Part shown: piece by piece, positions 2 to 43,099 of the stretch | How positions within the stretch are numbered: position 1 is the first letter of the stretch | Layout: each line of letters begins with the position of its first letter | Assembly: GCA_029263395.1 (NCBI GenBank) | Contig: JAJCXO010000112.1 | Span: 50,993 to 114,992 of the forward strand | Source: Acidobacteriota bacterium | GTDB taxonomy: Bacteria > Acidobacteriota > Thermoanaerobaculia > Multivoradales > J023 | DNA: 64,000 nt | Reading direction: 5' to 3' | The notes under the pieces: generated by a model | Database searches by the model: none | The model's input: only the letters and a program-made list of their open reading frames with translations | Told to the model about the DNA's origin: nothing | Position numbers and translations under genes: made by a program

Positions 2-1273
2 CCGATCCACACCGTCGCCTTTGGCACCACAGAAGGTGAAAGTCGGCTGATCTACGAACCCGATGACGTCCTCAACAATATCGACGAAAAGCGCATCGCA
101 CGGGAGTATCACACCCGCCGTGTCGACACCGAGCTGCAGACCATCGCGGACCAAACGGGTGGTCAATCGCTGATTGTCGAAGACGGCGCATGGGTACAAG
201 ATCTGGTGCCAACCCTATTGGCCTCCGAGCCGACGGTAGTCGACATCGAAGGCCAAGACAAAGAGGATCTCTCGGTCTATCCCCTGCTCGGGTTTCTGCT
301 CGGCTTCCTGGTCGAGACCCTGATCTTCTGGCGTCGCCGAGGAGCCAACACTAGCAACAATCGACCCCGCATGGCGGTCTCGCCAACCGTCGCCAGCCTC
401 TTGATCGCCAGCCTCTTGCTCTACGGTTGCCAACTCGTCGACGCTCCGGCTCGCAGCCTGCCGATGCGTATCCTCAACGCGGTTTACCACAACGATCTCG
501 GCGTCGGGTTGTTGGAGGCCGGTCAGCACGCAGACGCCGAAGCTCGCTTCGAGAAAAGCATGAGCTACCGAATACGCCGCCACATCCCGCTGTACAACCT
601 GGGCAAAAGCAGCGCTGAGCAAGAGGAGTTTGCCGTCGCCCACGATTTCTTCCAAGAAGCGATGCTGGAGGAGCCACGGTTGGTCGAGGCTCACTACAAC
701 GACGGTCACGCGCTCTACCAATGGGGCGAACAAGAGATCGACCGCGAAGAGTGTCGCTTCGAACGCGGCCGGCAGCTTTGGAGTCAGGCGATCCAACGGT
801 TTCAGGACGTCATCGAACTTGCCGGAGCCAACAGCAAGTTGGGAGTACGCTCCCAGGAAAGCGCAGCGCATATCGAGGCTCTCCTCGTTGAGCTCGATGC
901 GCTCGAAGCTGCTGACTGCCAGCCGCCGCCACCTCAAGATCCGACACCGGAAGGCGAAGGCGGCGGCGGAAGCAGCGAAAGCGAAGGTGAGGGTGGAAGC
1001 GAAGGTGAAGGTGGGGGCGAAGGCGAAGGTGAAGGCGGGGGCGAAGGTGAAGGTGAAGGTGAAGGTGAAGGTGAAGGTCAGGGTGACGGATCCCCTGAGA
1101 ATGGCTCAAGCGGTGGAGGTGGCTTGAGCGAAGACGAGACCGAGCAGATTCGCGCCGCCCTGGAGCGAATTCAACAGGAAGCGTCCTCTGCATCGGGTTA
1201 TCGGCAGAGCGCACATCAACAGATCAATGAGGAAACGGTCGGCGAGGCGAAGGGCCGAGAGTTGTGGTGGTAA
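2..1273 (+). CDS. VWA-TPR protein, fused BatB/BatC-like (5' partial)
   Basis: The reading frame is open from the left edge, so the start lies outside the window. The first ~65 residues resemble the end of a von Willebrand A domain (IHTVAFGTTEGE, then LQTIADQTGGQSL), as in BatA/BatB aerotolerance proteins. Two hydrophobic segments follow (near 280-325 and 375-430), then tetratricopeptide-like helices (NDLGVGLLEAGQHADAEARF, YNLGKSS). Next comes a Gly/Glu tract of repeated GEGEGE and a C-terminal helix ending in WW. In other bacteria BatB (VWA) and BatC (TPR) are separate neighbouring genes; here they appear fused. The likely role is envelope stress or a MoxR-linked chaperone complex at the inner membrane. 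An internal GTG at 206 would remove the VWA part and is not a likely start. Confidence 0.75.
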   Translation, partial: PIHTVAFGTTEGESRLIYEPDDVLNNIDEKRIAREYHTRRVDTELQTIADQTGGQSLIVEDGAWVQDLVPTLLASEPTVVDIEGQDKEDLSVYPLLGFLLGFLVETLIFWRRRGANTSNNRPRMAVSPTVASLLIASLLLYGCQLVDAPARSLPMRILNAVYHNDLGVGLLEAGQHADAEARFEKSMSYRIRRHIPLYNLGKSSAEQEEFAVAHDFFQEAMLEEPRLVEAHYNDGHALYQWGEQEIDREECRFERGRQLWSQAIQRFQDVIELAGANSKLGVRSQESAAHIEALLVELDALEAADCQPPPPQDPTPEGEGGGGSSESEGEGGSEGEGGGEGEGEGGGEGEGEGEGEGEGQGDGSPENGSSGGGGLSEDETEQIRAALERIQQEASSASGYRQSAHQQINEETVGEAKGRELWW

Positions 1274-2989: not shown

Positions 2990-4390
2990 ATGATTTATCT
3001 CAAACCCGAGCTTACCCTGCTTGCTGTTCTCGCGTTAGTTACCACTACTCCGGCCCTCGCTGGCCCCGTCGTCGTACCGACCGCCGAAGGCCAGATCGGC
3101 GAAATGCCCGGCGCCGGGGACCAGCTCTTCGGCCCAAGCTTCGAGTCGATCCGTGGCCAGCGTGGCGAGCTGATCCTCGGTTCTATCAGCGCCTTCGGCG
3201 GCGCAACGCCACCGCCGCCCGAGTTCCAATTCTTAACGGACCGTATCCACGGAACCCCGAATCCGACGCCGGTAGGTTCGATCACTTCCCTGTTCGAATA
3301 CCTCGAGAAATTGGGGCCCAGCTCGAGCTACGCGCGCCTATCCGATGACATGGGCGACTATGTCGTCTTTAGCTTCGCGATTGATGGCGGCTCAGTAGAT
3401 TCAATCACTGTGCGCATCGCGGGCTACGACGAGACGGGTACCCCCCTCTTCCAAGGACCTATCGCCGAGGATATTCCAACCTTCACCTTGATCCCAGATC
3501 CCCGATTCGCCAAGACTGGTGTCGCTGTTGACAACCAAGGACGCGCAACAGTCGCCTATACCGAGCTCAGCATGGCGGGCTTGCCACGGGTCAGAGCGAC
3601 GCGAGCCGATGCGGTGGCCGGAACGATCATTGATCCCGACTTCATCATCAACGACAACATCCGCGGCAACCCGGATGTCGCTTTGCTCGATCCCGCCGGC
3701 AACCGCCTGATCATCGCTACCGAAGAACTCACTGCCGGCCCAGGCATCAAAGGCAACATCGTGGATTTCTCGGGCGGAACTCCTGTTGTTCTCCCCGAGT
3801 TCACGGTCAACAACACGGCTGCCGCTTTCGGCGACGTCAGCCCCGCCGTCGCAGCCGACCCGACAACCGGCACTTTCACCGTCGCCTGGGAACATGTGAC
3901 CACCACTCAAGGTGATCCGATCGACGTACGCGCGCGTCGTTTCGACTCGATGGGCAACCCGGTCGCCGACGACTTCCGAGTCAACACGACGACCGCCAAC
4001 GCCCAAGCACAGCCCTCGGTCGCCTACGGGCCCGATAATCTGTCGGCGATCGCCTGGGCTGGGGATTCGACCATGCCGATGGGCGTCAACGACCTCGATA
4101 TCTTTCTACAAGTCTTCGATCCGTCCGGCAACCCGATCGGTGGTGAAGTTAAAGTCAACACCTTCGACACCAACACCCAAGACCGACCGGCGGTTCGGTT
4201 CCTTCCTGATCGAGACGCTTCCGGTCGACCGCAGGTTGCGGTGGTGTGGCGCGACGTCGGGAATTCCGGCGGCTTCAATCCCCGCGGCACCGGCACCAGT
4301 TACCGCTGCTTCTCGATCAACGGCTTCGACCAAGTTGATCCAATCTTCGCTGACGGGTTCGAGTCTGGCGACACCAGCTCGTGGCAATGA
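2990..4390 (+). CDS. Secreted protein with C-terminal FADGFESGDTSSW tail
   Basis: A 466-residue protein with a clear signal peptide (MIYLKPELTLLAVLALVTTTPALA). The rest is rich in beta-type segments with repeated patterns such as DPTTGTFTVAWEH, DDFRVNTTTANAQAQPSVA and GGEVKVNTFDTNTQDRPAV, suggesting a repeat beta-propeller or beta-sandwich. It ends in DPIFADGFESGDTSSWQ. Endings of the form F-ADGFESGD-S-W recur on unrelated secreted proteins of some bacteria and may be a sorting or maturation tag. That reading is from memory, not tested here. Ribosome binding site GGGGAAAGGG precedes the ATG. No enzymatic motif was recognised. Confidence 0.75.
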   Translation: MIYLKPELTLLAVLALVTTTPALAGPVVVPTAEGQIGEMPGAGDQLFGPSFESIRGQRGELILGSISAFGGATPPPPEFQFLTDRIHGTPNPTPVGSITSLFEYLEKLGPSSSYARLSDDMGDYVVFSFAIDGGSVDSITVRIAGYDETGTPLFQGPIAEDIPTFTLIPDPRFAKTGVAVDNQGRATVAYTELSMAGLPRVRATRADAVAGTIIDPDFIINDNIRGNPDVALLDPAGNRLIIATEELTAGPGIKGNIVDFSGGTPVVLPEFTVNNTAAAFGDVSPAVAADPTTGTFTVAWEHVTTTQGDPIDVRARRFDSMGNPVADDFRVNTTTANAQAQPSVAYGPDNLSAIAWAGDSTMPMGVNDLDIFLQVFDPSGNPIGGEVKVNTFDTNTQDRPAVRFLPDRDASGRPQVAVVWRDVGNSGGFNPRGTGTSYRCFSINGFDQVDPIFADGFESGDTSSWQ

Positions 4391-4428
4391 TCAATTCTCA
4401 GCCACCGATTTCAACTAGCGGTCTGTTA

Positions 4429-4458
4429 GCCTTGGTCATTCCTGAACCCAACCAAGGC
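4429..4458. repeat. Inverted repeat GCCTTGGT-N14-ACCAAGGC
   Basis: Perfect 8-bp arms lie between the secreted-protein gene and the M14 peptidase gene. There is no T-run after the right arm, so it may be a factor-assisted terminator or an operator. Confidence 0.4.
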
Positions 4459-4526
4459 GCCGATTGAATACGAGCTTCTCTCAAGCGACGGTGTCTGCGG
4501 TGCTTTCGCTGTCCTGGAGAACGCAC

Positions 4527-7463
4527 ATGAACGTAGCTAGTTCCCGGCCCGTTTTGCCTTGTTCGGCTCGAGGAGGGAGATCTCGCGGAGCGAGCAAGCA
4601 GCGAGCGTGTTTGAGCTTCGCAAGCTTGAGCCTCTCGTATCCGTTGGCATCACGAGGGCTCAGGCATTTCACAAGAGATCCGGCGAGTTCGGAGCTGCGG
4701 CACAGCCCACGAGACCGACCGACCTCTCGATGCCTTCTAGCTAGCCGATGCCTCATAGCTCTAGCTTTGATCCTTGGGTGGCCCTTGGCAGCAGGGGCCC
4801 AGCCGATCCCGGCTCCGGAGTCGGTGCTCGATGCGCCGGTAGGTGAAGACTTTTTTCTTGCCACTTACGAAGAGTCGATCAACTACTTCCAAAAACTGGC
4901 GGCGGCTAGCGACCGTGTTGAATTACGGCAGATCGGCAAGAGCTCCTTCGGACGTGACTGGTACTTGGCGATCATCTCCTCGCCAGCCAATCTTGCCGAC
5001 CTCGACAATATCCAAGCCACCTCCCAGCGTCTTGCGCACCCTGAAGGCCTGAGCGACGAAGACGCCCGACGCTTGGCGCGTGAGGGCAAGGCCATCATCC
5101 ACATCGACGGCGGTCTGCACGCCACCGAGGTAGCTCACGCCCAACATACCATTCAGCTCGCCTACAACCTGGCAACCGCCGATGGCGATCCCGAGATCCA
5201 AGCGATCCTCGACAACGTGGTGTTGCTGTTGTGGCCATCGATCAACCCCGATGGCCAGACAATTGTCGCGGACTGGTACCGCAAGAACTTGGGCGGCCCC
5301 TACGAAGTCTCCCCCTTGCCAAGGCTTTACCAGAAGTACATTGGTCACGATAACAATCGCGACGGCTACATGCTCAACACGCATGAGTCACGAGTCGCCA
5401 CCCGAGTGGTCCGTGAGTGGGAGCCGCAGATCCTCTACAACCATCACCAGACCTCCCCCTTCCCCAGCCGCATCTGGATTCCACCGTTCGCCGAGCCAAT
5501 CTCAGAATTTGTCCACCCATTGATGTGGCGCACGGTCAATTTGGTAGGGATGTCGATGGCTCAAGCGCTGGAAGAGCGAGGACAGAAGGGCGCGGTGCAC
5601 ATGGGCACCGGCTTCGACAACTGGTACCCCGGCTTCCTCGACCACGCCAACAACTTTCACAACGTCGCTGCCTTCCTCACCGAAACTGGCCTCTACCGCT
5701 ACGCCACACCCCACTTCTACACTATCGAGGACTTTCCAGAATCGTCCCGCGACCTAAGACCACAGTCGCTTTATGCCAGCCCATGGGAAGGCGGCTGGTG
5801 GCGATTGCGAGATGCGGTCGACTACATGCTGACCGCGTCGATCTCGGTGCTCGATGTCGGTGCGAAGTACAAGAACGACCTGCTGTACAACCGCTACCAG
5901 GCTGGCCGAGACGTTATCGCGTCCTACCGAGACAATCCGCCATTCGCCTACTTTGTACCCCGAGAACAACGCGACCCGGTGGCAGCAGTTGAGCTGTTGC
6001 GGCGCCTAGCGTTCAACGGTATCGAGATCTCACAGCTTACCCGGCAAGTAGCCTTCGAAGGCCAGACCTACCCCCAAGGGACTTGGGCGATTGTGATGGA
6101 TCAGCCCTTCGCCAACTTTGCCCGGCAGCTGTTCGCGGTTCAGACTTACCCCGATCTCCGACAGTATCCAGAGGGCCCCCCGGATCAACCCTACGACGTT
6201 GCCGGCTGGACACTGCAGTACCAGATGGACGTCCATGTTGTCGCCGCCACGTCACCGTTGGATGACGAGTTCCGCGACGCGCTCGAACCTCTGAACGGGT
6301 CGGCCCTGGCCTGGGATTCGGACACCATAGATGCCACGCTGTTCGATAGCCCACGCGGTGTCGGATATGACAGTCACGATGTTGCCACCGCTATCACTCC
6401 ACCGGCCGGCCAGGCCAGGGGCTCCGGACCTGCGCTTATTCTAGACATGGCACAGAACAACAGCTATCGGGCTATGAACCAAGCCTGGAAGACCGGTGCC
6501 AAGGTGTCTTTTATCCCTGGGAAGGCCGGCGAAGAGAACCAAAGCAGCACCAGCGGCCACTACGCCATTACCGGCCTGAACGAAGCCGACAACCGTGCCA
6601 TGGTGCAGGACCTCGCCCTGCAAGCCAAGCGCTCTGGTGCTGACGGCCCTCGAATAAAGCAACCCCGTATCGGCCTCTACAAACCCTGGGACCCGAGCAT
6701 CGACGAAGGCTGGACTCGCTGGCTGCTGGAGCGTTACGACTTCGACTTCACCAACCTGACTAACGCGGAGGTTCTCGCCGGCAATCTCAGGAACCATTTC
6801 GATGTGCTCTTGATCGCTGACATCGCAACCGATGACATGCTGGAAGGTTTTCCCAAGGGCAGCGTTCCACCGCGCTACGTCGGCGGCTTGAAGGGCGCTG
6901 GCGTCCGCGCCCTCGATGCCTTCGTTCGTGCCGGGGGCACTCTCGTGACCCTCAACCGCAGCGCTTTGTTCGCTATCGAACACTTGCACTTGCCAGTAAA
7001 GAACGTGGTCGCGGATCTCGACCCAACCGACTTCTTCATGGGCGGCTCGATCCTGGAGATGATCGTCGACCCATCCCACCCAGTAATGACCGGCATGCCG
7101 GAACGCGCCAAGATTTTCGTGTCCCGCAGCCCGGTCTTCACCACCACAGAAGGTTTCGAAGGTGCCGTGCTGGCCAAGTATGCCGAAGCTGGGTCGCCGC
7201 TGCTCTCCGGCTACCTACTGGGAGAGCAACACCTCCAGGGTTACGCCAGCGCTCTCGACGTCCGCCACGGCAAAGGTCATGTGATCCTGCTCGGCATGCG
7301 TCCCCAGTGGCGAGGTCAGCCCTTCGGTACCTTCCGGATCCTCTTCAACGCCGCGTTCTACACGTCGCGACTGGCGGAGTTTGTCGACCAGGAATCGGCA
7401 TTCTGGTCTGCGCCCGCTATCGCGTCGGAAGCACCAGCTGCCCTAGACAGCCACGACGACTAG
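4527..7463 (+). CDS. Secreted M14 family zinc carboxypeptidase-like protein
   Basis: The zinc site of M14 peptidases is visible: HATE (His and Glu ligands, about residues 198 and 201 from this start), YNHHQTS (third ligand, ~306) and the catalytic Glu in AFLTETGLY (~386). INPDGQ and HDNNRDGY are typical of the family. The C-terminal third resembles a glutamine-amidotransferase-like/ThuA-like domain. A hydrophobic segment (CLIALALILGWPLAAGAQ) ending in AQ is the likely export signal, but it sits ~75 residues from the start behind an Arg/Ser-rich stretch. ATG 4527 has GGAG 7 bases upstream. An in-frame ATG at 4464 lacks a ribosome binding site. The true start may lie closer to the signal peptide. 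Confidence 0.88.
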   Translation: MNVASSRPVLPCSARGGRSRGASKQRACLSFASLSLSYPLASRGLRHFTRDPASSELRHSPRDRPTSRCLLASRCLIALALILGWPLAAGAQPIPAPESVLDAPVGEDFFLATYEESINYFQKLAAASDRVELRQIGKSSFGRDWYLAIISSPANLADLDNIQATSQRLAHPEGLSDEDARRLAREGKAIIHIDGGLHATEVAHAQHTIQLAYNLATADGDPEIQAILDNVVLLLWPSINPDGQTIVADWYRKNLGGPYEVSPLPRLYQKYIGHDNNRDGYMLNTHESRVATRVVREWEPQILYNHHQTSPFPSRIWIPPFAEPISEFVHPLMWRTVNLVGMSMAQALEERGQKGAVHMGTGFDNWYPGFLDHANNFHNVAAFLTETGLYRYATPHFYTIEDFPESSRDLRPQSLYASPWEGGWWRLRDAVDYMLTASISVLDVGAKYKNDLLYNRYQAGRDVIASYRDNPPFAYFVPREQRDPVAAVELLRRLAFNGIEISQLTRQVAFEGQTYPQGTWAIVMDQPFANFARQLFAVQTYPDLRQYPEGPPDQPYDVAGWTLQYQMDVHVVAATSPLDDEFRDALEPLNGSALAWDSDTIDATLFDSPRGVGYDSHDVATAITPPAGQARGSGPALILDMAQNNSYRAMNQAWKTGAKVSFIPGKAGEENQSSTSGHYAITGLNEADNRAMVQDLALQAKRSGADGPRIKQPRIGLYKPWDPSIDEGWTRWLLERYDFDFTNLTNAEVLAGNLRNHFDVLLIADIATDDMLEGFPKGSVPPRYVGGLKGAGVRALDAFVRAGGTLVTLNRSALFAIEHLHLPVKNVVADLDPTDFFMGGSILEMIVDPSHPVMTGMPERAKIFVSRSPVFTTTEGFEGAVLAKYAEAGSPLLSGYLLGEQHLQGYASALDVRHGKGHVILLGMRPQWRGQPFGTFRILFNAAFYTSRLAEFVDQESAFWSAPAIASEAPAALDSHDD

Positions 7464-28806: not shown

Positions 28807-29670
28807 ATGCCCCAGCCCCGCCAACTCGACCTTTTTCGAACCATCGGCAGCCCGCCCGCCGAACAGCCAGCCCGCCAACCGGCGCGACCCAAACCACCGA
28901 CAGGCGAATCGCCAGCCCTGACCCTGGCCCCGCCCGCCAAACAGGTCGCACCCCAGCCATCGAATACCCCAAGTTCCCGCGAGGAGCTCGTCTCGAGGCT
29001 GCGCGCTTTCTTGCCGATCAGTTCGATTGTTCTGACCAACAACCGCACCTCGATCATCTCGGCGCAACACCATCGCGACGGGTTCGACCTGCGTATTCAT
29101 CGCTGCTTTGCAAACGCCCCCGACAATATCCTGGCCGCCGTCGCCACCTTCCTGCAGAGTCCGAAACGCAGCTCGATACGCCGTGACGCGCTGACAGAAA
29201 TACGCCACTTCTTTCAGCAGCACCGTCCACAAACATCGCCACCGCAAACGCGACGAAGCCGCGTACTGCAGCCAATCGGAGCAACGCTCGACCTCAGGGC
29301 TCTACGCGACGAGATCAACCACCGCTATTTCGACAACCAGCTGTCGGTACATATCACCTGGGGTCGAGCCATCACTCGACGCCGACGCCACCGCAGCTGC
29401 GGGTTTTCTGTTCGACTCGGCACCTATACTGAAAACGACCAGTTAGTGCGCATTCACCGGTGTCTCGATAGCGGCAAGGTGCCACGTTACGTAGTTGAAG
29501 CTGTGGTGTACCACGAGATGCTCCATGCCGCGGTACCGCCGGTCGTCAAGAACGGCCGACGCCAGGTTCACACATCGGAGTTTCGGCGGCGGGAGCGTCT
29601 ATTTCGCCACCATCTCAAGGCGGAGCGCTGGATCGATCGCAACCTTGGTCGGCTGATCGGAGCTCGCTAG
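28807..29670 (+). CDS. SprT-like zinc metalloprotease-fold protein
   Basis: A 287-residue protein. The first ~60 residues are Pro/Ala-rich and probably disordered (SPPAEQPARQPARPKPPTG). Residues ~165-285 form a SprT-like domain with the zinc motif VVYHEMLHAAVPP (HExxH) and the downstream His in VHTSEFRRRERLF. SprT/Spartan relatives act on DNA-protein crosslinks, but bacterial SprT-like proteins are largely uncharacterised. It lies 10 bases after the TAXI gene on the same strand. The Arg-rich tail (RRRERLFRHHLKAERWIDR) fits nucleic-acid binding. Confidence 0.82.
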   Translation: MPQPRQLDLFRTIGSPPAEQPARQPARPKPPTGESPALTLAPPAKQVAPQPSNTPSSREELVSRLRAFLPISSIVLTNNRTSIISAQHHRDGFDLRIHRCFANAPDNILAAVATFLQSPKRSSIRRDALTEIRHFFQQHRPQTSPPQTRRSRVLQPIGATLDLRALRDEINHRYFDNQLSVHITWGRAITRRRRHRSCGFSVRLGTYTENDQLVRIHRCLDSGKVPRYVVEAVVYHEMLHAAVPPVVKNGRRQVHTSEFRRRERLFRHHLKAERWIDRNLGRLIGAR

Positions 29671-34569: not shown

Positions 34570-36027
34570 ATGGAGGATCTGATGGAAAAGATCGACCTCG
34601 GGCCTGCCTGGCGCCATTATTGTTGCCGCCCACAAGTGCGGCAACGACTCCTGGAGTACCTCGGCGGCCGGACGCTCGAAGACGCGACATGCTTCTACGT
34701 CACCTCCGGTGCACCGACCATGACGGAGGGATTTCACCCCTTGCCAGTCACTGAGCTCTGGAACCTCCTCACATGCCATCAGGAAGCAGCCCGCTCATTG
34801 TGGGATCGGCAGTCTTTACTGGTTCACCTAGATGTCGAGCACGTCCACTTCGAGCGGCCATGGGCGAGTTACCTGGACTCTGACCATTGTCACGACATAC
34901 AGAAACCGCTGGTGGCGGCGATCCACCAAATCCTCGGCACCCATGGCATCAATCCGCTTCACCTCCTCACCGGCCGCGGGCACCATTTTGTGTGGCGCAT
35001 CCGGCGCGGTTGCGAGGTCTTTGATCGCCTGGCGCGGCTAGGGCGACCACCCCCGTCCCTGACACAGCTCTATACCGAGCCACAGCGCCCGGTGGATCAA
35101 CCAGTGGATCCTGAGCTCGGGAAAGCCTTCGCCGGGCTCGGTCGCGTCATGGAGTTCCTCGGTCATCGCTTGCTACGAGCCGCCGCCGCGGACACTCCGG
35201 TTCCCCTACAGTTGACGGCGGTAGAGGCCGGCCCAGTGGCGGGAGAGCGAGAGATCGTCTCGATCGATATCTCAGAGTATGGAGATCCTCTGCATACGCG
35301 CATGATCCGGCTGCCGTTCAGCGCCTATCTCAAAGCCCATCGAATGCGGCCGGCGATCTCGCCCGAGGACCGCTCCGCCTTGCCCCTGATGGTGACGATC
35401 CCCCTGGGGAGTATCGACGAGACTCAGGGGCTTCGGCTGATGCGGGATCTGCAAGGCGCTGCGGAGCTGGCGCGTTCGGTCCAAGTCGCAATCCCGGACG
35501 CCTCGCGGGGTATGTTTAGCCTACTCGCCGACTACGAAACCTCGGCGCTGGCCCGATTCCACCACGAGTACGACAATTTCGAAGCTTCCAGCAGCTCGCC
35601 TCCGGCTGCCCTGCCGCCATGCGCCCAACGGCTTCTCGACTACCCCAACGACTTGTTGCTCAAGCCCGCCGGAATTCAACACCTGGTGCGGGTGTTGCTG
35701 GCCCTGGGTTGGCATCCACGCCAAATCGCCGAGCTCATCGATTCAAAATACCGCCAGGATCACGGCTGGGTGCAAGATCTTCATTTTCACGAGACCTCCT
35801 GCCGGGCTGAATTCTATACCCGTCTTTTTGCCGGCCTCTTCGCGACCGGACGCGACGATCTAGTGGACTTCAATTGCCGCTCGGCTCAGGAAAAACGCTA
35901 CTGTGAAACCGATCCTTGCGGGCAATCTCTAGACCCGTTCAGGGACTCTCTCATGGCGAGGAGAAAACATGGGCGATTGGCCAGTTGGCCTGTCAACGGG
36001 TTGTTTCTACAACACCAGCATCTTTGA
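34570..36027 (+). CDS. Archaeo-eukaryotic primase-like protein
   Basis: The 485-residue protein matches the AEP primase layout by motif. Motif I is LLVHLDVEHVHFE (D88, E90). Motif II is LLTGRGHHFVWRI (H138, H139), and motif III is VSIDISEYGDPLHTRMIRLP (D233, R244, R247). These correspond to the metal-binding DxD/E, the sxH nucleotide contact and the third acidic residue followed by R-x-L/P. A helical C-terminal region carries Cys411, Cys436, Cys445 and Cys450, possibly a zinc or Fe-S site. No helicase domain is attached. ATG 34582 has a better ribosome binding site (GGAGG) than 34570. The last 59 bases overlap the next gene. The assignment is from motif reading only. Confidence 0.6.
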   Translation: MEDLMEKIDLGPAWRHYCCRPQVRQRLLEYLGGRTLEDATCFYVTSGAPTMTEGFHPLPVTELWNLLTCHQEAARSLWDRQSLLVHLDVEHVHFERPWASYLDSDHCHDIQKPLVAAIHQILGTHGINPLHLLTGRGHHFVWRIRRGCEVFDRLARLGRPPPSLTQLYTEPQRPVDQPVDPELGKAFAGLGRVMEFLGHRLLRAAAADTPVPLQLTAVEAGPVAGEREIVSIDISEYGDPLHTRMIRLPFSAYLKAHRMRPAISPEDRSALPLMVTIPLGSIDETQGLRLMRDLQGAAELARSVQVAIPDASRGMFSLLADYETSALARFHHEYDNFEASSSSPPAALPPCAQRLLDYPNDLLLKPAGIQHLVRVLLALGWHPRQIAELIDSKYRQDHGWVQDLHFHETSCRAEFYTRLFAGLFATGRDDLVDFNCRSAQEKRYCETDPCGQSLDPFRDSLMARRKHGRLASWPVNGLFLQHQHL

Positions 36028-36817
36028 CTGTCTGGAGCAGATCCGCGACGCCGGTTTCGGTCTGGTGGAGATCTGCTCGTTTCCGGCACATCTCGACTAT
36101 CGCGACCCGACCGCAGTCGAACGCGCCGCGCAGCTTCTGCGAGAGCTCAGCCTGGAGCCCTACTCGTTCCACGCACCGTTCGCCGAACATATCGAGATCA
36201 CCGCTCTCGATCCCGCGCAGCGTCAGCACGCGACCCAAGAGATCCTGCGCGCGGCCGAAGCGGCGGCGATCCTGGGTGTGCGCTACTTCGTTATCCATCC
36301 GGGACCAGAGAAAGGCGGGTTGCCGGATCACCAGCGTTTCGAACGCATGGCCAACGCTGCCTCGGTGCTCAACGAGATCTCCCGGCGGTGTCGCGAGATG
36401 GGGATCGCGCTGGTCCTGGAGAACATGTTACCCCACCTCTTCTCGGGCCATGTGCGAGACCTGCTGTGGCTGCTCGGAGCTCTGGAAACGACCGATGTTG
36501 GGGTCTGCCTCGATACCGGTCATGCGTTCCTTTCTGGAGACCTCCATCGCGTGGCTCACAAGCTCTCGGGGCACCTGTGGATGGTCCACGCCAGCGACAA
36601 CAACGGCCACTTCGACGATCACCTGCCGCCAGGAGAGGGCTCCGTGCCGTGGGCACAAGTGCTCGCTCAGCTCTCGAGAATCGGTTTTTCTGGAGCTCTC
36701 ATCTTGGAGATTGCTGGCAATCCAGATATCCGTGGGACCCTCGAACGAGCCCAGCGCTCGCGACTTTATCTCCGCCAACTCCGACACCATCCGCACAATT
36801 CCCACGCAAAAGCCTAG
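35969..36817 (+). CDS. Xylose-isomerase/AP-endonuclease-2-fold TIM barrel protein
   Basis: The 282-residue TIM barrel has the metal-site motifs of the AP_endonuc_2 superfamily: HAPFAEHIEI, VIHPGPEKGG, LVLENMLPHLFSG (Glu), VCLDTGHAFLSGD (Asp, His), MVHASDNNGHFDDHLPPGEGSVPW and LILEIAG (Glu). Family members are sugar isomerases/epimerases or, as in Nfo, endonuclease IV; it lacks any obvious Nfo-specific region. GAGGAG lies 6 bases before the ATG, inside the primase-like gene, so the two are probably translated together. A nucleotide- or DNA-repair role is possible, but a sugar enzyme is equally likely. Confidence 0.8.
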   Translation: MGDWPVGLSTGCFYNTSIFDCLEQIRDAGFGLVEICSFPAHLDYRDPTAVERAAQLLRELSLEPYSFHAPFAEHIEITALDPAQRQHATQEILRAAEAAAILGVRYFVIHPGPEKGGLPDHQRFERMANAASVLNEISRRCREMGIALVLENMLPHLFSGHVRDLLWLLGALETTDVGVCLDTGHAFLSGDLHRVAHKLSGHLWMVHASDNNGHFDDHLPPGEGSVPWAQVLAQLSRIGFSGALILEIAGNPDIRGTLERAQRSRLYLRQLRHHPHNSHAKA

Positions 36818-38433: not shown

Positions 38434-40308
38434 ATGCAAAAAGCCAACTGGCAGGAACGTTTCGCCGACAAGGTTGTCACTGCCGAACGCGCCGCCGCCG
38501 TCGTCTCCACCGGCCACCGGGTTTTTGTTGGTTCGGGGGCCGGTGAGCCTCAGACCCTAGTCGAAGCCCTGTCGGCCAAAGAGGGGCTCAACGATACGGA
38601 GATCATCCACCTCCTGACCCTCGGCGTCGCTACCTATACCGAGCCGCGGCTCGGTAACCGCTTTCGCCACAACGCCTATTTCATCGGCCCGAATGTTCGG
38701 CAAGCGGTGAACGAGGGACGTGCGGACTACACACCCATCTTTCTCTCCGAGATCCCCCGTCTCTTCCGTTCGGGACGGGTTGTGATCAATGTCGCAATGA
38801 TCGAGGTCAGTCCTCCCGATGACCATGGCTACTGCAGCTTTGGCGTGTCTACCGACATCGTCAAGGCCGCCGCCGAGTCGGCCCATATAGTGGTCGCGGA
38901 GGTCAACGAACAGATGCCGAGGGCGCTCGGAGACTGCTTCATCCACGCCCGCGATATTCATTTTATGGTACCGAGCAACCGCCCGATCCTCGAGGCGGTT
39001 CAAGGCGAGCCGGACGAGCTGGCCAGGAAAATTGCACGCCATATCGCCAACCTGGTGGTCGACGGCGCGACCCTACAGCTCGGTATCGGCACCATCCCGG
39101 ATGCGGTCCTTCACTACCTGAACGACTTCAAGAACTTGGGCGTACATACTGAGATGTTCTCGGATGGCATCATCCCGTTGGTTGAACGGGGGATCATCGA
39201 CAACTCACGGAAGACTCTACACCGTGGCAAAATTATCTCTAGCTTCGTAATAGGCTCACGGAAGCTCTATGACTTTATCGACAACAATCCGTTGGTCGAA
39301 TTCCACCCAACCGAATACGTCAACGATCCCTTCATCATCGCGCAGAACGACAAGATGATCTCGATCAACTCGGCGATTGAGGTCGATCTGACCGGCCAAG
39401 TCTGCTCCGATTCCCTGGGCACGATGTTCTACAGCGGGATCGGCGGGCAGGTGGACTTCGTCCGCGGCACGGCCAGGTCCAAAGGCGGACGGCCGATCAT
39501 TGCACTGCCCTCCACGGCCGACAACGGCACCATCTCGCGCATCGTCCCGACCCTGAAACCGGGCGCCGGAGTTGTGACGAGCCGCGGCGACGTCCACTAC
39601 GTGGTCACCGAGTACGGGTCCGCCTACCTCCACGGCAAAAGTGTCCGCGAGCGAGCTATGGCACTGATCAATGTTGCCCATCCAAGGTTCAGGCCGTGGT
39701 TGATGGCGGAGGCTAAAAACCGGAAGGTGGTCTACGTCGACCAGATCGAGATGTCGATCCGTCCGTCGGTCTACCCGGAAGAGCTGGAGCGATGGCTGGA
39801 GCTCAAGGACACCTCCCGTGTCTTTCTGCGCCCCTTGAAACTCACCGACGAGCCGCTGATCCGGGATCTGTTCTACCAACTCTCGCCGGAATCGATCCAA
39901 TACCGTTTTTTCCAGATGCTCAAGGCGCTACCGCACAAGAAGCTCCAGGAGTTCCTGCGCGTCGACTACGAGGCCGACATGGCCCTGGTGGTGTTGACCA
40001 ACTCGACCGACGAAGATGCCCGATTGATCGCCATCGCCCATTATCTGAAGGATCCCCGCAGCAATTTTGCGGAGGCTGCATTCCTGGTCCGCGACGACTG
40101 GCAAGGCAAGGGAGTAGGGACCCAGCTGATGAAGGGGCTGGTCGAAGCCGCCCAGCGCCAACGCATCGCCGGCTTCACAGCCGACGTCTTGGCCAACAAC
40201 AAGAGCATGTTACGGGTCTTCCACCAACACGGCCTGCCGGTAGAGAGCCGGCTCGAGGGTAATGTCTACTCCCTCAAGATTCCGTTTGCCCAGCGCGACG
40301 TGGGCTAG
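38434..40308 (+). CDS. Acyl-CoA hydrolase/CoA-transferase fused to GNAT acetyltransferase
   Basis: A 624-residue protein. Residues ~1-440 form a two-subdomain acetyl-CoA hydrolase/4-hydroxybutyrate CoA-transferase fold (STGHRVFVGSGAGEPQTL; QLGIGTIPDAVL; HTEMFSDGIIPLVERG; SINSAIEVDLTGQVCSDS; TEYGSAYLHGKSVRERA). Residues ~450-615 are a GNAT domain with the acetyl-CoA loop RDDWQGKGVGTQLM. This fusion is recurrent in bacteria near universal stress proteins, where the GNAT part may acetylate lysines in response to acyl-CoA levels. The last 35 bases overlap the converging ATPase gene. Confidence 0.88.
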   Translation: MQKANWQERFADKVVTAERAAAVVSTGHRVFVGSGAGEPQTLVEALSAKEGLNDTEIIHLLTLGVATYTEPRLGNRFRHNAYFIGPNVRQAVNEGRADYTPIFLSEIPRLFRSGRVVINVAMIEVSPPDDHGYCSFGVSTDIVKAAAESAHIVVAEVNEQMPRALGDCFIHARDIHFMVPSNRPILEAVQGEPDELARKIARHIANLVVDGATLQLGIGTIPDAVLHYLNDFKNLGVHTEMFSDGIIPLVERGIIDNSRKTLHRGKIISSFVIGSRKLYDFIDNNPLVEFHPTEYVNDPFIIAQNDKMISINSAIEVDLTGQVCSDSLGTMFYSGIGGQVDFVRGTARSKGGRPIIALPSTADNGTISRIVPTLKPGAGVVTSRGDVHYVVTEYGSAYLHGKSVRERAMALINVAHPRFRPWLMAEAKNRKVVYVDQIEMSIRPSVYPEELERWLELKDTSRVFLRPLKLTDEPLIRDLFYQLSPESIQYRFFQMLKALPHKKLQEFLRVDYEADMALVVLTNSTDEDARLIAIAHYLKDPRSNFAEAAFLVRDDWQGKGVGTQLMKGLVEAAQRQRIAGFTADVLANNKSMLRVFHQHGLPVESRLEGNVYSLKIPFAQRDVG

Positions 40309-43099
40309 CGCTCCGGCGCCACCACTTCTGCGCTTCTATCGCTAGCAGGGTAATGGTGCTGAGCCCCAGGCACAGCACCAAGTCGCGGGCAGCGAGGGGG
40401 CGGGTGCCGAGGGTGGTCTGGAGGAACGGCACATAGAGCGCCGCCATTTGCAGGCCAAAGGTGAGGCCAACGGCGGCCAACAGTGACGGGTTGCCAAACC
40501 CGTGACGACTGAAGAGAGGTTCTCGATTCGCCCGCAAGGCCAAGGCATTACCCATCTGAGATAGGGTAAGAATGGTGAAGATCACCGTCTGCCAGTCTTC
40601 ATGGCTCGGAGTCTCCGCATGCCAGTAGAAGCCGCCCGCGACCACGGTCACCACCGCGCCGAGCAACCCTATCCATACGATGTCGCGGCCCAAGCCACGA
40701 TCAAAGATACCCTCGTTCGGCGGGTTTGGGGCGCGCCGCATGGTGTCGGTCTCCGACGGCTCGACGCTCAACGCCAAGCCGGGAAGGCCATCGGTCACCA
40801 GGTTGATCCACAGAATCTGGAGCGGCAGCAGCGGCAAGGGCATGCCGAGGAAAGGCCCTAGGAGCATGACCCCGATCTCGGCCGCGTTACTCGCCAGGGT
40901 GTACTTGATGAACTTGCGAATGTTGTCGTAGGCGGTCCGGCCCTCCTCGACCGCATCGACGATGGTCGCGAAGCGATCGTCCAGCAATACCATCTCGGCC
41001 GCTTCCTTGGCGACGTCTGTGCCGGTGATCCCCATCGCCAAACCAATGTCCGCCTGGCGCAAGGCAGGCGCATCGTTGACCCCATCACCGGTCATCGCCA
41101 CGATATGACCACGGGCCTGCAATGCACGTACGATACGCAGTTTGTGCTCGGGCGCCACCCGGGCAAAAACCGCCACTTCGTCGACCTTGGCTGCCAACTC
41201 TTGATCTGTCAGGTGCTCCAGCTCGGTGCCAGTAGCCAACCCCGCGCTATCAGTGATTCCGAGCTGGTGGGCAATAGCGAGGGCGGTCACTGGGTGATCG
41301 CCGGTGATCATGACCGGTCGAATACCGGCGCTGCGGCAACGATCAACCGCCCTGCGAGCACCCTTCCTCAGAGGATCGCGCAGACCCGCCATACCGACGA
41401 AGATCAACTCCTGTTCGAGGTCGGCGACCGAGTCCCCCGTTGGCGCCGCCACTGCCCGAAAGCCGAAGCCGAGCACCCGCATACCGTCTGTCGCCAGTCG
41501 ATCGTGGGCGGCTTCTAAACGCGCTTGCCAGGCGGCGTCGAGAGGCACGGCCCGATCTCCGACCCAGATACGATCTGCGACCGCCAACAACGCATCCGCA
41601 CCACCCTTGCTCAGCGCCACGTGGCCTTGACCGGCGACGGCACCCAACCAGAGGCTGTCGACACCCTCGGAGTCGACGCGGTGGACGGTGGTCATCCGCT
41701 TGCGTTCGGCGTCGAAGGGAGCCTCGGCCACCCGCGGCATCCGCTGCTCGAGAGCTGCCTTGTCGAGCCCGTAGCGGGCTGCCCCCACCACCAATGCCAC
41801 TTCGGTCGGATCACCGAGGAACGATTCGTCCGACTCTCGCAAAGCCTTGCCGGCGGCATCTTTGCTGAAGCTGGCGTCGTTACCCAAGGTTGCATCGTTA
41901 CCCAGGGTTGCATCATTACCCAGGGTTGCATCATTACAGAGTGTTGCAATGTCGAACAGAAGCTGGACCGACGGTTCGGCCAGCGTCTTCGACGCGATGT
42001 CATCGTCGCTCAAATCGACCCGGCCGGCAGCCGTTTCGAGTGCCGTCATGGTCATCTGATTGCGTGTCAGTGTGCCGGTCTTGTCGCTGCAGATCACTGT
42101 CACGGAGCCCAGGGTCTCAACCGCCGGCAAACGCCGGATCAACGCTCGTCGCGCCAGCATCCGGCGGGACCCGAGGGCCAGCACCACAGTCGCCACCGCT
42201 GGCAAGCCCTCCGGCACCGCCGCCACCGCCAAGCTGAGCGCGGTCATGAAGAGCAGCTGCAAAGCCTCGCCGCGCAGCCAACCCAACAGCACCACCAGCG
42301 CGACGATAGCCAGGGCCGCCAGCGCCAAGCTTCGACTGAAACCTGCCAGGCGACGCTGCAGAGGTGTCGGCTCGCGCTCGACCTGCTGGAGAAGGCCAGC
42401 GATGTTGCCGAGTTCGGTCGTCATGCCCGTCGCCGTCACCACCGCCAGGCCATGGCCGTGGGTCACAGCGGTGCCGACAAATACCATGTTGGCTCGGTCG
42501 CCAAGCGGCAGCTCGCCTACCGGCAACGCAGCAGGATCCTTGCTGACCGCCTCGGACTCGCCAGTGAGCGCCGACTCCAGGACCTGCAGATCGGCCGTCT
42601 CGATCAGACGAGCATCCGCTGGCACACGATCTCCGGTCTCGAGGACAATGACGTCACCACGGACCAGGTCGCGGGCTGGCGTCAACGCCAGTCTCCCGTC
42701 GCGCCGCACCTTGGCCGAGGGTACCTCGAGCTGGCGCAACGCCGCCATCGCCCCCTCGGCCCGGTAGTCCTGGGTCAGGCCGAGGATCGCATTGAGAACG
42801 ACGATGATCATAATAGCGGTAGCGTCTCGCGGCTCGCCCAAGAACCATGAGACGGCCGAGGCCAAAACCAGCAACGTCACCAGTGGGCTGCGAAACTGGT
42901 CCCAAAGAATCGCGGCGAGGCTACGTCCCGGCACTTCGACCAGGTCATTCGGGCCCTCCCTCGCCTGTCGTGCCGAGACCTCGGCTGGTGACAAACCAGC
43001 GTCGAGATTGGTCACCAGTCGCCGCAGCACCTCGGCCAATTCCAGCCGGTGCCAGGCCGTCACCACGCCATCTTGTTGCAGGCTGTTCACGACATGCAT
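40274..43099 (-). CDS. P2-type Ca/Mn cation-transporting ATPase with LGNDAT repeats
   Basis: The 941-residue pump has the A-domain TGES (~179-182), helix 4 VPEGLP (~296-301), the phosphorylation site CSDKTGTLT (Asp ~339), [11 protein letters not shown] and the helix 6 motif [10 protein letters not shown]. These are typical of Ca2+ or Mn2+ pumps of the SERCA type. In the nucleotide-binding domain the conserved segment LCNDA is extended into a run of NDATLG hexads (~388-412) coded by four 18-bp tandem units. The ATG lies 11 bases from a GTTTAC-N5-GTAAAC dyad and has no strong ribosome binding site. Confidence 0.9.
41878..41949 (-). repeat. Four 18-bp in-frame tandem units inside the ATPase gene
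   Basis: Units of the type CGTTACCCAGGGTTGCAT occur at 41878, 41896, 41914 and (diverged) 41932. They encode repeats of the conserved CNDATL segment of the nucleotide-binding domain without breaking the frame. Confidence 0.9.

Follow-up and report, generated by a model that had tools for sequence, protein, structure and literature searches.

What cellular task could join a primase-like protein to a TIM-barrel protein through a single pair of overlapping genes? The question is raised by a 64,000-nucleotide (nt) stretch of an Acidobacteriota bacterium genome (assembly GCA_029263395.1, contig JAJCXO010000112.1, positions 50,993 to 114,992 of the forward strand), termed here the window. Gene A of this pair (34570..36027, + strand) encodes a 485-residue protein with the fold of an archaeo-eukaryotic primase (AEP), i.e., a predicted primase-polymerase; because a public protein identical to A, P0001, has 481 residues, the start of A is inferred to lie at 34582, four codons later. 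Gene B (35969..36817, + strand) encodes an Endonuclease IV (EndoIV)-like TIM barrel of 282 residues, a predicted three-metal phosphodiesterase. Based on gene order, overlap, conservation of the pair, a single A-B fusion, motif residues and predicted folds, it is proposed here that A and B form a conserved two-gene excision and gap-repair module, a proposal that we regard as evenly poised.

An earlier sequence-only reading of the window had suggested checking whether the pair recurs in other genomes, and it does: in the best 80 of 121 genome stretches encoding A relatives (referred to here as loci), B follows A in 75 of the 79 that are informative, the remaining locus (L047) having a contig edge that cuts inside A. 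By tblastn, B lies next to A on the same strand in 77/80 loci; two of these matches are remnants (L018 and L037), and the other 75 match at least 251 of the 282 residues. At two loci (L023 and L050) B was found neither beside A nor elsewhere in either genome. Within the window the two genes share 59 nt in different frames (35969..36027, + strand), which predicts translational coupling, and a GAGGAG inside A (35958..35963, + strand), 5 nt before the ATG at 35969, is the likely ribosome-binding site of B; coordinates and frames confirm that the second gene begins 59 bases inside the first with its own GAGGAG, as had been described. Among the 73 of 80 loci in which the overlap was measured (start codons being chosen by rule, and the broken L037 and the fused L057 being included), lengths of 4 nt (37 loci), 59 nt as in the window (12), 8 nt (9) and 44 nt (3, with the closest relative, L002, as one of them) were found. 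In L057, a Planctomycetaceae metagenome-assembled genome (MAG), A and B are fused into one open reading frame (ORF) of 749 residues, of which residues 480-729 match PF01261. At L037:9409-9576, B stops after ~56 residues and is followed by ORFs that read as unrelated, with the frame of A open. No third gene recurs directly 3' of the pair, the largest group comprising 3 among 50 first downstream ORFs. In two loci from Verrucomicrobiota (L041:10262-11122 and L081:10261-11109), a helix-hairpin-helix, PolX-like gene (a label given by eye) starts ~47 nt downstream of B.

Membership of A in the AEP superfamily is predicted by its fold and its motifs. The predicted structure has the AEP (RRM-like) catalytic core, in agreement with the fold that had been put forward for checking, and the structures closest to the model are gap-filling rather than repriming AEPs. 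AEP motifs are defined as I (DxD/E), II (sxH) and III (hD), and the three ordered AEP-like motifs noticed earlier--LDVE (L87-E90), TGRGHH (T134-H139) and IDISEYGDP...R.IRLP (I232-P249)--do occur in A in that order; they were assigned by order and strand position, without residue-level superposition. Motif I (D88-V-E90; 34831..34839, + strand), which falls in strand 82-93 of the model, provides predicted catalytic metal ligands; motif II (34969..34986, + strand) is a predicted nucleotide-phosphate site; and motif III comprises I232-D233-I-S-E-Y-G-D239 followed by R244, R247 and K255 (35263..35334, + strand). An alignment of the window's A with those from 52 of the 80 loci (A3; n = 53) shows the motifs to be beyond chance: D88 is retained in 52 sequences, E90 in 51, H139 in 52 and D233 in all 53; likewise G135, G137, D239 and R244 are kept in all 53, K255 in 52 and R247 in 49. 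A has no match in Pfam, NCBIfam or PHROGs; a profile search of the PDB with alignment A1 (47 of 120 listed homologues plus the window; a further alignment, A2, holds 34 of the 120 plus the window) gave 0 matches at E <= 10, and a PDB search with A alone gave just two unrelated DARPin matches. Given that no sequence-level link joins A to known AEPs, its assignment rests on the predicted structure and the motifs.

For B, the label of a TIM-barrel endonuclease or isomerase had been suggested, of which the first half, in the form of an EndoIV-like enzyme with a three-metal site, fits better than the isomerase half. Nine predicted metal ligands (H68, H110, E151, D182, H185, H207, D216, H218 and E247; 36170..36709, + strand) align to the same residues of a solved EndoIV (5zhz); all nine are present in 73 of 74 B sequences (one from the window, 73 from the loci), and the one that departs from this is truncated. 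That these ligands prove an AP endonuclease was considered and rejected, as the same nine occur in 16/16 checked stand-alone B-like proteins without A; being thus shared, they are no proof of a DNA substrate. Five loci from the window's phylum (L111, L113 and L115-L117) encode such stand-alone B-like TIM barrels, possibly within a distinct conserved operon: their neighbours, as labelled by eye, are sugar-nucleotide-transferase-like and small-kinase-like ORFs on one flank and, on the opposite flank, an asparaginyl-tRNA synthetase.

Within the proposed module, the role of B, as an EndoIV-like metal phosphodiesterase, would be incision at abasic sites or the cleaning of blocked 3' ends; the short gap left behind would then be filled by A, acting as an AEP polymerase. 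By analogy with Prim-PolC and LigD-POL, A would be an active, template-dependent polymerase, whose cysteine domain may be PriL-like, hold Fe-S or Zn, contribute to the binding of DNA or of the initiating nucleotide, and perhaps render the enzyme sensitive to redox state. B would act on DNA, in which case A and B would hand over one substrate; a separate cellular ligase would seal the nick; and the module might serve stressed or non-replicating cells, as for mycobacterial Prim-PolC/LigC. We know of no gene coupling between mycobacterial EndoIV and Prim-PolC. According to PMC5663958, mycobacterial Prim-PolC fills 1-3 nt gaps with ribonucleotides and LigC seals them, EndoIV performed best among gap-processing enzymes when the repair reaction was reconstituted, and expression is highest in early stationary phase. 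By this analogy the pair resembles the polymerase step (A) and the end-processing step (B) of a Prim-PolC-type path, drawn together into one co-translated unit. Unlike the mycobacterial arrangement, no ligase gene was noticed beside the pair, and none recurs beside A in most loci, a statement made without a ligase-specific neighbourhood search (in L023, part of a LigD-POL gene is found close to A); unlike Prim-PolC, A continues into an additional cysteine domain at its C-terminus, and no sequence relation between it and LigD-POL could be detected. As for LigD itself, its phosphoesterase has a fold unrelated to B, and 18/37 A-bearing genomes, the window's own included, carry LigD-POL as a separate gene.

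To our knowledge, few chromosomal bacterial AEPs have a known cellular role, namely LigD, Prim-PolC and CAPP. No description of the A-B pair was found in searches of an open-access library, a scope outside which most subscription papers lie, and PMC11377751, on DNA maintenance proteins, was not found to treat primases in the passages sought. Although the parts are of known kinds, their combination and the A family appear to be new: this family is large, is nameless in the libraries searched and has an EndoIV-like enzyme as its one near-constant partner. If the pair repairs DNA, it would constitute an unrecognised excision-repair pathway in many environmental bacteria; if the C-terminal domain of A binds an Fe-S cluster, it would be a PriL-type redox module in bacterial chromosomes.

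Several observations weigh against a repair module. No described activity of either A or B was found in the literature, and a relation of A to LigD-POL finds neither a PF21686 match nor more than an hhalign probability of 0.2% against 12 LigD-POL sequences. Like Nfo (i.e., Endonuclease IV), B is a TIM barrel with all nine metal ligands at aligned positions; unlike Nfo, it scores 36.6 bits against the model TIGR00587, whose cut-off of 129.65 is not reached. Its best NCBIfam score, 64.2 bits, is to the CbiR model NF041277 (cut-off 105, likewise not reached), and its closest fold neighbours are MJ1311 and ketose 3-epimerases, EndoIV being absent among the 50 matches listed. To this must be added the retention of the nine ligands in stand-alone B-like proteins, the sugar-nucleotide-like context of some of their genes (read by eye) and the presence of A without any B in the genome of L050. 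Nor does B replace Nfo as a general rule, an idea that was rejected on finding Nfo over its cut-off in 15/37 A-bearing genomes (the search for Ku, LigD and Nfo covered 36 of the 80 locus genomes, with the window's own added for LigD and Nfo). In the other 22/37, the window's own included, Nfo over the cut-off is absent, a count in which MAG incompleteness is uncontrolled; in the window's own genome gene B is the sole nfo-type match, with none over the NCBIfam cut-off. A further adverse point concerns stress genes. Universal stress protein relatives occur in 12/80 loci, Hsp20 relatives in 12/80 and P-type ATPases in 11/80, as against 0/20 short control loci; the control covers 64 kb versus 1034 kb, however, and is therefore too small for a claim of stress-gene enrichment. 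The window pair itself is preceded by a CBS-domain protein, a universal stress protein and a sensor kinase-regulator.

How far the proposal can be extended depends in part upon the C-terminal domain of A (35581..35949, + strand), which may be PriL/PriCT-like: the model is helical and has zero strands over residues ~338-460, and single A members show weak matches, all below cut-off, to PF04104 (PriL), the NrS-1 HBD and RepB_primase_C. The four C-terminal cysteines reported earlier are present in A (C351, C436, C445 and C450; 35620..35919, + strand, codons at 35620, 35875, 35902 and 35917) as possible [4Fe-4S] or Zn ligands, with a fifth, C411, between C351 and C436. They are not universal, as the pattern C-x83..86-C-x8-C-x3..7-C occurs in 41/53 A sequences and the other 12, several of which have a different C-terminus, are without it. 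In yeast PriL the cysteines are residues 336, 417, 434 and 474, giving spacings of x80, x16 and x39 as compared with those of A, and most of the C-terminal subdomain is missing from archaeal PriL (both from PMC2852410). PF04104 matches 1/48, 2/53 and 2/38 members, with a best E of 0.01 and without reaching its cut-off. The last figure refers to alignment A4 (38 of the 53 A3 sequences, atypical C-termini being among those excluded), whose members are weakly matched by ten families, i.e., by three primase helical domains and seven others, among which the unrelated Terminase_5 matches 3/38 at E 0.0076, versus PriL's 2/38 at E 0.01. When ten A4 members were examined singly, PriL was matched by one (L061; E 0.012, 15.4 bits versus a cut-off of 22.4), over fragment residues 17-75, which take in the first cysteine at 25. 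A profile search with the A4 C-terminal domain alone gave two unrelated lipoprotein matches only (E 1.6), and PriL was not found in the window's own genome. That A carries a PriL-like domain with Fe-S or Zn is thus inferred from weak profile matches, helical content and cysteine spacing only. As in PolpTN2 and PriS-PriL (PMC3973330 and PMC5862659), an AEP domain is followed by a four-cysteine helical domain in one chain; unlike these, A was found to have no plasmid, phage or viral-contig relatives, and unlike PriL itself it falls below the Pfam cut-off and, in 12/53 sequences, is without the full cysteine set. In PMC5862659, Kazlauskas et al. make the case that PriCT is homologous to PriL Fe-S_N and exclusive to AEPs of mobile elements.

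With such a domain the repair proposal can be taken further, tentatively: A would be a PriS-PriL-like single-chain primase-polymerase with an Fe-S redox switch and B its dedicated EndoIV-type nuclease, tied to it by the overlap of the genes and in one case by fusion, the two forming a self-contained, horizontally spread, co-translated complex that cuts abasic sites, cleans the end and refills the gap with ribo- or deoxynucleotides when replication has stopped--a third class of bacterial AEP repair beside LigD and LigC/Prim-PolC. This extended form we consider possible, with the doubt clearly greater than the confidence. The same domain could serve a different end, in that A might restart synthesis past lesions like PrimPol or PriS-PriL, with its initiating nucleotide held by the PriL-like domain and with primer or lesion ends trimmed or processed by B afterwards. 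Such a role in repriming and damage tolerance is rather doubtful: the structures closest to A are gap-filling AEPs, the cysteine pattern is incomplete in the 12 sequences just mentioned, Terminase_5 scores as well as PriL and, apart from B, A has no partner family in most loci, as judged by the top 25 neighbour clusters and by the ORF that comes first downstream in 50 loci.

An unlikely reading is that A makes a nucleotidylated or oligonucleotide product whose phosphodiester B hydrolyses in the manner of CbiR, the two serving as a signalling or metabolite-repair pair. CbiR does give B its best NCBIfam score, ketose epimerases are among its fold neighbours and, within the same phylum, stand-alone B-like genes lie beside those labelled by eye as sugar-nucleotide-transferase-like and small-kinase-like. 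Yet the AEP motif residues are conserved in A, the pair is not accompanied in most loci by a recurring sensor or effector family and, unlike CbiR (PMC7733943) and MJ1311 (PDB 3wqo), B is linked to an AEP and falls below the CbiR cut-off. Moreover, the one locus in which B's place is taken points elsewhere. Among loci without B, L023 (a Desulfobacteraceae MAG) alone was seen with a gene of known family in that place, and the family is one of DNA repair: the gene after A belongs to the uracil-DNA glycosylase (UDG) superfamily (PF03167, E 3e-9), its longest reading frame overlapping the end of A by 23 nt. The opposite flank of A carries two Ku genes, one of which scores 242.6 bits against TIGR02772, and a LigD-POL gene truncated at the contig end. 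The cluster (A, Ku/Ku/LigD-POL and the UDG-superfamily gene) is located at 3804-4850 (-), 6350-7096 (+), 2996-3817 (-) and ~2-454 (+), the contig with the Ku and LigD-POL matches having been equated with L023 by coordinates, and the L023 genome has Nfo over its cut-off. As this Ku/LigD/UDG context occurs in 1 of 80 loci, it also counts among the points against the repair module. The earlier suggestion of either repair or signalling is, as a whole, partly supported. That the pair is part of non-homologous end joining was rejected, Ku being near A in 1/80 loci (one query); Ku is present in 15/36 A-bearing locus genomes searched and also in the window's own, where Ku and LigD-POL lie on contig C196.

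It is improbable that A and B are metabolically unrelated, with B a sugar isomerase or epimerase kept beside A merely by the overlap or by shared regulation. The linkage in 75/79 loci persists at 38-79% identity of A, through overlaps of 4, 8, 44 and 59 nt and one fusion, and A and B distances correlate (r 0.67 for 48 pairs including the window, the best of 2000 permutations reaching 0.19; shared ancestry was not removed). In addition, H68, H110, D216 and H218 of B match in the EndoIV, MJ1311 and TTHB071 alignments, whereas in the alignment to the isomerase IolI no counterpart was read at H68, H110 and H218.

The pair occurs in eight phyla (Acidobacteriota, Planctomycetota, Verrucomicrobiota, Fibrobacterota, Desulfobacterota, Omnitrophota, Gemmatimonadota and Latescibacterota), as taken from record titles with 'Deltaproteobacteria' counted as Desulfobacterota; A also occurs in Hydrogenedentota (L047) and UBP9 (L050). 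Among 7998 scored, 1386 database relatives of A were found, with a single match to gene A in its own genome (10.7 Mb) and none in phage, plasmid or IMG/VR records. Within the window's phylum A is present in 4 of 297 genomes, each time with an adjacent B, one of these four copies having an in-frame TGA and another being found as two pieces. A B-like protein is present in 35 of the 297, and the A-bearing genomes hold the four top B scores (519, 330, 188 and 174 bits, the next being 165). This patchy distribution suggests horizontal spread of the pair. The same patchiness across several phyla gives the look of an accessory module, which might attack or mark foreign phage or plasmid DNA with its AEP and nuclease, but this is the least probable reading, for the relatives are missing from the phage, plasmid and viral collections searched, no PADLOC family is matched at E <= 1 by A, by B or by the fusion, and the recurrent neighbours noticed, without a defence-library scan of them, are stress, regulatory and transport genes.

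Around the pair, scans of seven other ORFs of the window revealed neither a helicase nor a ligase domain, in keeping with the earlier remark that A stands apart from such partners. Further along the window, an acetyl-CoA hydrolase/transferase fused to a GNAT acetyltransferase domain (38434-40308) is adjoined by a frame read by eye as a P-type ATPase (40274-43099). Upstream, a SprT-like metalloprotease-type protein (28807-29670; 23.9 bits versus a Pfam cut-off of 25.6) has a possible link to DNA damage.
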